A stretch of DNA of 38,960 bases from a virus. Positions 16,783-20,060 of this stretch are shown here, in pieces. The position numbers were made by a program, and so were the translations under genes. The stretch lies in IMG/VR virus record IMGVR_UViG_3300027782_005250, positions 1 through 38,960 of that record; one strand, written 5' to 3'. A model generated the notes under the pieces. The model was not told the DNA's origin. It searched no databases and saw only the letters and a program-made list of their open reading frames with translations. Position 1 is the stretch's first letter. The number at the start of each line of letters is the position of its first letter.

Positions 16783-19662
16783 TTAATTTCGCAAATTATT
16801 GATTCTTTGTAATATTTCTTCCACATAATCTGCCGAATCTATATGATCACCCATCACTGTAGCAATCACTTGTTTTTTATTATTTAATATGTCATAGATA
16901 ATCCCCTCAATTGTATTTTCAAATAAAGGGTAATACACTAACACATTATTTTTTTGACCATATCTATATGCTCTATCTTCTGCTTGTGCATGATCTGAAG
17001 GTAAAAATGATAGGTCGTTGAAGATAACAGATTCTGCGGATGTTAGAGTGATACCAACACCTGCCGCTTTTATATTACCAACAAATACTTTTACTTTATC
17101 GTTTTCTTGGAATTGATCTACGCTGTTTTGTCTTTCTATCTTGGACATTGACCCGTCTAATCTAACCGCAACTTTTCCAAAATGTTCAACAATTCTGTTT
17201 AAAGATTCTGTAAAATTACAAAATATAATAACTTTCTTATCTTGTTCTATTATATTTTCCGCAAGTTCGATTGTTTGATTTATTTTTTCGTTTGCAATAA
17301 TTTGTCTGACTTTAGTGAGTTTGGTAAATTGAACTGTAAGAGATTTTGATTCTTCAGGATTCTTATCATACCAATCATAATAATCTCCCATTACTTCTTC
17401 ATATTCTTTTGATTTTAATTTCAAATAAACAGGAGTGATAATTTTGTCAGGTAAATCCAATACATTTTCTTTTAATCTTCTTAAGATGGTTGCAGATGTT
17501 CTGTCTCTTAATTCTTCCAAATTAGATGCACCCATCACATTCCATACTTTACGAAACCCCGCTTTAAATTGATATCCAGCACAATATCGAATAACATAAG
17601 CCATCCAATTTTTAGCCACGGGAGAATCAACCAAACTTAATAAATTATAATAGTCTATTGGTCTGGAGGTCATTGGGGTTCCTGTTAATAACCATAGACG
17701 ATCAATGTCTTTAACAAAATCGTTTATAAGTTTTGTTCTTTGGGCTTGGGCATTTTTAATGTAATGAGCCTCATCAACAATTACCAAATCAAAGTTTGAT
17801 TCATTTATTAATGATTTACCATTTTTTTTGGTTTCGTGGAAATTCTTTATGATATCATAATTTATGATAACAAAATCGTGATCAGCTGAAAAATTCTTAC
17901 CTTCAGAAATATAAATGGATTTATCAGAATAATTTTCAATCTCTCTTTTCCAATTTATCTTTAAAGTGGCGGGACAGATAATTAAAACTTTTTTAACTTT
18001 GGCTTCCAAAGCGGCAATAATTGTTGAGGTTGTATTGTGGGTAACAATACAATGTTCAGCAACATATAATTTATCAGGTGAATCAACGGATATACATACC
18101 GCATCACCCTTTCTTTCGAATTCAATATTTTTTATATATCTTCCAACTTTATATTTTTGTGGCGAATTATATAAGTTTTTTTTCCTTTCCATTCTAAAAG
18201 GATTCATATCACCTTGTAATTTAATGTTTACACGATATGCTCTTTTCCCTTCTTGTTTTATACCTTTATATGTGTATTTTGGTATTCTACTTGATTTACG
18301 AGCAATTCCACCTAAACTATGTACAATTTCAATTACATCATCAACTAATTTTTCAGATATTGAACAAAATTCAGTTCCAGAAAATTCATTATTTTTTCTT
18401 GATTTATTACAAAAACCATCAGTATCCATTAAACCTTGTAATATACTTAACCTATCTTCAACACTACTAAATTTATATATTTCAGGAATAAATTTATCAA
18501 TTGAAGTACATCCCATTAATCCTAATTCTTTTAAATTATTAGTTAGAGAATTTTTTCTTCCCATTTTAGTTACAATAGAATAATCACAATTATCTCCTTT
18601 AACTTTAGTTATTTCTAAATCTTCAGTTATTATTTCTTTTATATAATTAATAATTTCATTATCAACACTACTAAATCGTATAGATTTACCTGAAATGCCT
18701 CCGTCACCAATTAATAACCCAAGTAAATAAGGGTTGATTGGCAATTTATTTAAATTATTAAAATTTATTGGTTTAACAATTGGTATTTGCCATTTTAGTT
18801 GACCGTTTTTTGAAATATAATATGTCGGTTGTAACTTATTGTTTTTTCCTTCAATTCTTTTTATTTGTAAGTCTTTATCTAATAATTGTTTTATTGTTAA
18901 ATCAATTGTTAACGTTTTTCTTAAATTACTATTATTACCGTTGGCGCCTGTTGATACTGACCAAATATGTTCATCGCAGCATAAAATAGAATATCCATCA
19001 TTAAATGTAACTCTATATAAATCTTTTGTCCCTTGTGGATACACTCCAATTACATTATAGGGATTACCATCACTACCAATTACTTTTTCGCCAACGGTAA
19101 GTTCACCAATTTTTTTAGTTCCACTCGGTGTATAAATTTTAGTATTACTTTCTAAAGCCTTTCCAAGACCCATATCGTCGGCTAATATAAACCTTTTATT
19201 CTCAACCAATTTTTGGATTGCTTCTTTTTGGTGATCCAATGGAGGTCTATGAGAATATTTTTCATAATTAATCACAACATCTTTTACCGTATTGTCTTTT
19301 ATGATTGATGCTTTAGGTAACCAAAAATGATGAAGTTGTTCGTTTTCAAGAACTTTACCCCAAATATGAAACGCCTTTTCTTTATCAGCCAAAAGTTTTT
19401 CTACCCAAACTTTTTGTGGAACTTCGGTGTATAGTTTATCGTCAGCAAGTTTTTGAGCAAAATAAGCATCAAGTGTTACCCATTTTTTTGCAACCTTTGG
19501 TTGTTTGTTGTGGTTGGTAATAATGTATTCCGATTGACTTCTTGTAGGGTAGAATTTCTTATTGATTTGGGATTTTCTTTTTAATTCCAAAATATAATTA
19601 TTCCCTCCTTCATAAGTTTCAAGGATTGATAATGCTTTAGATTCTAAACTCAATTCACTCAT
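16783..19662 (-). CDS. SNF2-family helicase/translocase interrupted by an intein
   Basis: A 959-residue precursor that yields a 584-residue SNF2-type ATPase after the 375-residue intein is removed. The motif I loop is split after GLGK (165-168) and resumes with TTS (544-546). DEAH is at 630-633, LLTGTP at 658-663, GSMSKIERQ begins the second RecA domain at about 837-845, and QAEDRAYRYGQ (893-903) is the SNF2 motif VI with its arginine fingers. The N-terminal 140 residues are a phage-specific lead-in. Such proteins are double-stranded DNA translocases that remodel forks or strip proteins; T4 uses the related helicase UvsW in recombination and origin control. Activity should depend on splicing because the ATP site is cut. 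The ATG overlaps the SET-gene stop by 1 base (TAATG). Confidence 0.93.
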   Translation of the reverse strand: MSELSLESKALSILETYEGGNNYILELKRKSQINKKFYPTRSQSEYIITNHNKQPKVAKKWVTLDAYFAQKLADDKLYTEVPQKVWVEKLLADKEKAFHIWGKVLENEQLHHFWLPKASIIKDNTVKDVVINYEKYSHRPPLDHQKEAIQKLVENKRFILADDMGLGKALESNTKIYTPSGTKKIGELTVGEKVIGSDGNPYNVIGVYPQGTKDLYRVTFNDGYSILCCDEHIWSVSTGANGNNSNLRKTLTIDLTIKQLLDKDLQIKRIEGKNNKLQPTYYISKNGQLKWQIPIVKPINFNNLNKLPINPYLLGLLIGDGGISGKSIRFSSVDNEIINYIKEIITEDLEITKVKGDNCDYSIVTKMGRKNSLTNNLKELGLMGCTSIDKFIPEIYKFSSVEDRLSILQGLMDTDGFCNKSRKNNEFSGTEFCSISEKLVDDVIEIVHSLGGIARKSSRIPKYTYKGIKQEGKRAYRVNIKLQGDMNPFRMERKKNLYNSPQKYKVGRYIKNIEFERKGDAVCISVDSPDKLYVAEHCIVTHNTTSTIIAALEAKVKKVLIICPATLKINWKREIENYSDKSIYISEGKNFSADHDFVIINYDIIKNFHETKKNGKSLINESNFDLVIVDEAHYIKNAQAQRTKLINDFVKDIDRLWLLTGTPMTSRPIDYYNLLSLVDSPVAKNWMAYVIRYCAGYQFKAGFRKVWNVMGASNLEELRDRTSATILRRLKENVLDLPDKIITPVYLKLKSKEYEEVMGDYYDWYDKNPEESKSLTVQFTKLTKVRQIIANEKINQTIELAENIIEQDKKVIIFCNFTESLNRIVEHFGKVAVRLDGSMSKIERQNSVDQFQENDKVKVFVGNIKAAGVGITLTSAESVIFNDLSFLPSDHAQAEDRAYRYGQKNNVLVYYPLFENTIEGIIYDILNNKKQVIATVMGDHIDSADYVEEILQRINNLRN
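18034..19158 (-). other. class 3 intein with LAGLIDADG homing endonuclease
   Basis: This element covers residues 169-543 of the helicase precursor. It begins with alanine instead of cysteine or serine (ALESNTKIYTPSG) and ends ...CIVTHN before a threonine at +1. Block B reads DEHIWSV (W234), block F AVCISVD (C523), and block G has T541, H542 and N543. This W-C-T set plus Ala1 is the signature of class 3 inteins, which start splicing from the block F cysteine. LLGLLIGDGGI (313-323) and ILQGLMDTDG (407-416) are the two LAGLIDADG motifs of an embedded endonuclease; both acidic residues are kept, so homing may be active. The DNA looks more A/T-rich in third positions than the helicase around it. 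Insertion is directly after the Walker lysine. Confidence 0.9.
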
Positions 19663-20060
19663 TAAATCACATTAGTGTTTGATCTTCCATCAGCCCAATA
19701 TGAGTTGTCACCATAATAGACCAATATTTCTTCATCAGGGTTTATGTCTTTAACACAATAAAATTCAAAGGTTTGATTTTCCAAATTAGATCTCCATAAT
19801 GCGTTCGGAGTTATAGAATGATTATATAATGACCCATACCCCCAAGCAAGAACTTGTTTTTCCCAATTTTCGTGGGTTTGAGGCCAATTGAATCTGTAAT
19901 CGATTAAAACAGGAGAACTATGACCGAATGGAATATTCAAATCGTAGATTGGACATTCTTCTATAATTTCTCCTTCATATATTTTTTCTGAAGCAAAAAC
20001 ACCCATTCCTTGTATTTGACTATGAGATATATAAATTTTTGTTGGCGGTTTGATTTTCAC
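19662..20060 (-). CDS. SET-domain protein
   Basis: A 132-residue single SET domain, a fold that transfers methyl groups from SAM to lysine side chains. The three motif regions are visible: SQIQGMGVFASEKIYEGE (14-31), GYGSLYNHSITPNA (74-87), which forms the knot with the NHS core, and DINPDEEILVYYGD (105-118). There is no pre-SET or post-SET zinc cluster. The start is GTG at 20060, and no better ATG exists before the first motif. Its stop overlaps the SNF2 helicase ATG by 1 base, so the two are probably co-translated. The target could be a phage or host protein; none is visible in sequence. Confidence 0.85.
   Translation of the reverse strand: MKIKPPTKIYISHSQIQGMGVFASEKIYEGEIIEECPIYDLNIPFGHSSPVLIDYRFNWPQTHENWEKQVLAWGYGSLYNHSITPNALWRSNLENQTFEFYCVKDINPDEEILVYYGDNSYWADGRSNTNVI

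Follow-up and report, generated by a model that had tools for sequence, protein, structure and literature searches.

What kind of insert interrupts the ATP-binding loop of the SNF2-family helicase gene carried by this viral DNA, and is it a functioning, mobile element or a remnant of one? Throughout, we use the term window for the whole stretch of 38,960 nucleotides that was analysed. From comparison with related sequences, we consider it very likely that the window carries a full-length class 3 intein that spreads by homing and lies in the codons for the P-loop of an SNF2-family helicase of a phage, and that this intein is probably active. Here, we describe the insert and its host gene, the evidence that assigns it to class 3 and the traces of its movement between phages, before turning to known inteins of this type and to a residue that proves less constant among its relatives than the class signature would have it.

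The insert and its host gene

The insert sits in frame between ...DDMGLGK and TTS..., dividing the Walker A motif of a protein with both the SNF2_N and Helicase_C domains of an SNF2 helicase (Table 1); Pfam matches on the precursor are SNF2 (6.5e-28), Helicase_C (2.3e-18) and, within the insert, LAGLIDADG_3 (9e-9). The intein begins with ALESNTKIYTP and ends with CIVTHN. The boundaries set by the original prediction prove exact, as L021, a near-identical phage contig, holds an exact intein-free allele that lacks precisely 1125 bp, and its placement of the insert between GLGK and TTS is upheld as well. Also present, as it had described, are the Ala start, the THN end before Thr+1 (Thr544, in keeping with the Ser or Thr expected of class 3 at this position) and the complete class 3 triplet, Trp at B:12, Cys at F:4 and Thr at G:5, here Trp66, Cys355 and Thr373. 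The apparently intact endonuclease is likewise borne out: the insert has two LAGLIDADG motifs, retains both catalytic Asp residues and has the matching fold, with a dN/dS of 0.125 and a modelled resemblance to PI-SceI, both given below. Because these Pfam matches are joined by PDB intein structures that match the insert (E down to 6e-14) and by a contig 94-98% identical that lacks exactly that segment, the insert is not a chance resemblance. From the split Walker A motif it can soundly be inferred that the helicase would bind ATP only once spliced, and we infer that the insertion would have made the helicase dependent on splicing.

Table 1. Positions of the intein, its host gene and neighbouring genes in the window
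Feature	Position	Strand	Remark
Intein-containing SNF2 helicase precursor, 959 aa	16783..19662	(-)	ORF and Pfam; N-extein 168 aa, intein 375 aa, C-extein 416 aa
Class 3 intein (very likely) with LAGLIDADG homing endonuclease, 375 aa	18034..19158	(-)	Precursor residues 169-543
Residue 1, Ala	19156..19158	(-)	Variable position among relatives
Block B His64-Ile-Trp66 (B:10, B:12)	18961..18969	(-)	Within DEHIW
Block F Cys355 (F:4)	18094..18096	(-)	Precursor Cys523; predicted first nucleophile
Block G Thr373-His374-Asn375 (G:5-G:7)	18034..18042	(-)	
LAGLIDADG motif 1, LLGLLIGDGG	18697..18729	(-)	Asp152
LAGLIDADG motif 2, ILQGLMDTDG	18415..18444	(-)	Asp247
Walker A 5' half (G-L-G-K)	19159..19170	(-)	
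Walker A 3' half (T-T-S)	18025..18033	(-)	First Thr is the +1 nucleophile, precursor Thr544
SET-domain protein gene	19662-20060	(-)	Pfam 1.5e-12; directly upstream of the SNF2 gene, start overlapped by one base
Protein with Fe/Mn superoxide dismutase domain, 512 aa	15204-16742	(-)	Domain at residues 36-226
Tail sheath protein, 1072 aa	22360-25578	(+)	Sheath domains confined to last ~280 residues

Several observations concern annotation. With the NCBIfam model intein_Nterm (TIGR01445) the window intein reaches about 19 bits, below the cut-off of 24.5; this standard model misses it, and annotation pipelines could overlook it in the same way. Some of the PHROG 'terminase' and 'primase' matches of the precursor fall on the intein, which suggests that inteins are included in those families. 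An antisense open reading frame at 17966-18583 (+) was considered as a gene and set aside, there being no sign of one beyond the open frame. Among the neighbours, the SET-domain protein has homologues in at least 43 related loci, just upstream of SNF2 in those listed, and a SET and SNF2 pair in one phage gene run looks unusual. The superoxide dismutase-domain protein has homologues in at least 69 related loci and a C-terminal half without assignment, and the long N-terminal part of the tail sheath protein gave no family match.

Class assignment and predicted splicing route

The class of the intein was examined by phylogeny, fold and residue conservation. In a FastTree tree of the splicing blocks, 59 class 3-type and 20 class 1 inteins split without exception (SH 0.967), the class 3 side being the less independent since its members were gathered by similarity to class 3 sequences, whereas 18 of the 20 class 1 inteins were found in whole genomes with the NCBIfam N-terminal intein model, independently of the window, and two (L193 and L198) were found by similarity to the window yet fall on the class 1 side. 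Dropping residue 1 together with the W, C and T columns leaves the split in place (SH 0.923), and with or without these signature columns the window intein lies on the class 3 side; phylogeny, which the original prediction had proposed as the check between a class 3 and a class 1 grouping, thus joins motif, fold and comparative tests in supporting its class 3 assignment. An AlphaFold2 model of the intein, built from a 31-sequence alignment (pLDDT 88.9, pTM 0.89), resembles PI-SceI over the whole chain (Z 26), and its splicing domain matches the class 3 M. smegmatis DnaB intein 6bs8 (Z 18.0, rmsd 1.4 Å over 123 residues) with gp41-1 just behind (Z 16.9), a difference too small to be taken as proof of class.

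Residue conservation was followed in 91 distinct inteins that share an identical insertion point, D[DE]MG[LV]GK/T (the slash marking the insertion). All 91 have Cys F:4, Thr G:5, His B:10, His G:6, Asn G:7 and Thr+1, and B:12 holds Trp in 79 of them and Phe in the other 12, while residue 1 is variously A (38), F (17), G (14), C (12), S (4), M (4) or L (2). When further near-site members are added, giving 95 in all, parsimony places 22 changes on the tree at residue 1, 3 at B:12 and none at Cys355, Thr373, His64, His374 or Asn375. A class 1 mechanism would fix residue 1 and a class 2 mechanism would leave Cys F:4 unfixed; a free residue 1 beside a fixed Cys F:4 is the pattern expected if Cys F:4 were the first nucleophile, and supports class 3 chemistry for the site group as a whole. 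Class 3 inteins with Ser1 or Cys1 were reportedly already admitted by Tori and Perler in 2011.

These data bear directly on the two other classes. Two class 1 inteins, L243 (Cys1) of an Acidobacteria genome and L193 (Cys1, Gly at F:4) of a Jerseyvirus helicase, do occupy the same SNF2 site, which might suggest that the window carries a class 1 intein with a substituted first residue, but those cases fall outside the class 3 split of the tree, residue 1 is something other than Cys, Ser or Thr in 186 of 206 distinct relatives with Cys F:4, and the Ala1 of the window stands where class 1 needs one of those three residues; we consider this reading exceedingly improbable and reject it on residues and tree alike. 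Ala1 would, for its part, suit a class 2 (KlbA) intein, the group that the original prediction called 'class 1 Ala1 (KlbA-like)', a label since replaced by class 2 (PMC4031507). Class 2, however, is described by a KlbA host and Cys+1 (PMC4031507) and has no Cys at F:4, whereas the window has an SNF2 host, Thr+1, Trp B:12, Thr G:5 and a Cys F:4 that is invariant across 95 SNF2-site inteins, and it clusters with class 3 in the tree, which leaves a class 2 identity with next to no credence.

For the class 3 intein that we favour, the chemistry known for the family would run as follows. With His64 assisting and Trp66 and Thr373 holding it in position, Cys355 would attack the Lys168-Ala169 peptide bond to give the block F branched thioester, from which the N-extein would be transferred to Thr544. 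Cyclisation of Asn375 would then release the intein, and an acyl shift would link GLGK to TTS and so restore Walker A; Ala1 would have no chemical part in splicing.

Movement of the intein between phages

Homing would begin with the LAGLIDADG domain cutting the intein-free P-loop sequence, after which repair off the intein-bearing allele would copy in the intein plus a short flank, a view of mobility that comparison with relatives backs. The window and L021 are 98.3% identical downstream of the insertion (in the coding sense) and 94.0% identical upstream, and 7 mismatches, all silent, are concentrated in the 30 bp from -24 to +6 around the junction, whereas the remaining 770 bp of the comparison hold 24 (p = 3e-5). 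This excess of silent differences fits a short co-converted flank from the donor, although the tract could also stem from the opposite recombination, a loss of the intein in L021. Movement over larger distances is seen with L020, whose intein is 95% identical to that of the window at the amino acid level (dS 0.22) and whose helicase extein is only 50% identical (dS 1.4, near saturation, over the 218 residues available), and with L009 (intein 87%, extein 55%); the inteins are far more alike than their host helicases, which shows that the intein has travelled from one distant phage to another. The search for intein-free alleles in related phages, suggested by the original prediction, yielded 60 besides the exact allele in L021, so that among the best 80 of 385 loci together with the window 20 are filled and 61 empty, a ratio that is not a population frequency.

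Against this background, the insert could still be class 3 by descent but with its splicing lost or reduced, a decaying element like the Arth_1007 intein of Arthrobacter FB24. Signatures alone are no proof of activity, and that relative is an inactive class 3 pseudogene (PMC3196547), but in the window every catalytic residue is intact, the host frame is open, the extein is nearly the same as in intein-free L021, and dN/dS against L020 is 0.08 for the splicing domain and 0.125 for the nuclease domain, which makes decay a very unlikely account. Purifying selection acts on the nuclease domain. In a few relatives one catalytic Asp is gone, a sign that decay does happen in other members of the group.

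Known class 3 inteins and variation in the signature

The original prediction had held an SNF2 host to be uncommon for a class 3 intein, a claim that does not stand. The Deinococcus radiodurans Snf2 intein is among the founding, experimentally shown class 3 inteins (PMC3196547, PMC7664689, PMC11219805), its block F branched intermediate having been found by experiment (Brace 2010, as cited by PMC3196547 and PMC7664689). Like the window intein it interrupts an SNF2 helicase, although in a bacterial host, the comparison being by published description. Class 3 inteins are also described in mycobacteriophage P-loop ATPases, where Lys/Thr insertion in the P-loop is termed 'classic' (PMC5050341): those of the TerL proteins share with the window a phage genome, this site and a homing endonuclease, and differ in their terminase ATPase host, and cleavage of intein-free alleles has been tested for them in two phage pairs (PMC5050341). 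The class 3 mini-inteins M. smegmatis DnaBi1 (6bs8) and M. chimaera DnaB1 (6rix) resemble the window intein in the fold of the splicing domain (Z 18) and the WCT residues but lack an endonuclease and reside in DnaB. Class 3-type inteins with a nuclease in bacterial SNF2 genes, those of Hymenobacter (L109, L111, L113 and L123) among them, have the same D[DE]MGLGK/T site, WCT and a LAGLIDADG region, yet are about 37% identical and lie on bacterial contigs, whereas the Jerseyvirus intein, inserted at this P-loop position in an SNF2-like helicase of a phage, is class 1, with no Cys at F:4. L243, in genome G005 (Acidobacteria-type), likewise lacks Cys F:4 and lies at DDMGLGK/T of an SNF2-like gene, so the site has served inteins of class 1 as well as class 3.

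Among the 208 distinct inteins collected, 110 have SNF2-like exteins, mostly with intact nuclease motifs, 13 of these on contigs of the bacterial genome collection, and at least 600 viral stretches match class 3 patterns. Class 3 inteins in SNF2 helicase genes were known before and turn out to be common. Some relatives depart from the usual arrangement: L092 (5980-8400) has two class 3-type inteins inside one frame, L090 has two in separate frames of the same contig, and one in L104 (1393-2451) ends Thr-Cys-Asn before Cys+1, its penultimate His being replaced by Cys.

The one unexpected feature, found in relatives, is Phe in place of the 'invariant' Trp at B:12, in 14 distinct inteins overall and by 3 changes on the tree (loci L002, L004, L252, L253, L254, L256-L259, L261, L349, L352, L355, L371 and L378). 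It is notable because three class 3 mini-inteins no longer spliced once this Trp was changed to Ala (PMC5222942). In the Phe forms the frames stay open, Cys F:4, Thr G:5 and both nuclease Asp residues are retained, and dN/dS of 0.12-0.24 in the four pairs computed points to purifying selection. On balance, we incline to the view that class 3 homing into the P-loop is still going on in this group of environmental phage SNF2 genes, and that the signature of the class allows more than has been stated: A, F, G, C, S, M or L may stand at residue 1, and Phe may take the place of Trp at B:12.

By itself, the window intein adds one to the class 3 inteins of a host family that was already known. What it belongs to is a natural series: dozens of alleles share one site, the filled phage gene of the window has a near-identical empty counterpart in L021, residue 1 varies freely, B:12 can be Phe, and a few alleles have lost a catalytic Asp. 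The rules of class 3 and of homing can therefore be tested on natural variants. If the 'FCT' forms splice, the WCT signature would become (W/F)CT.
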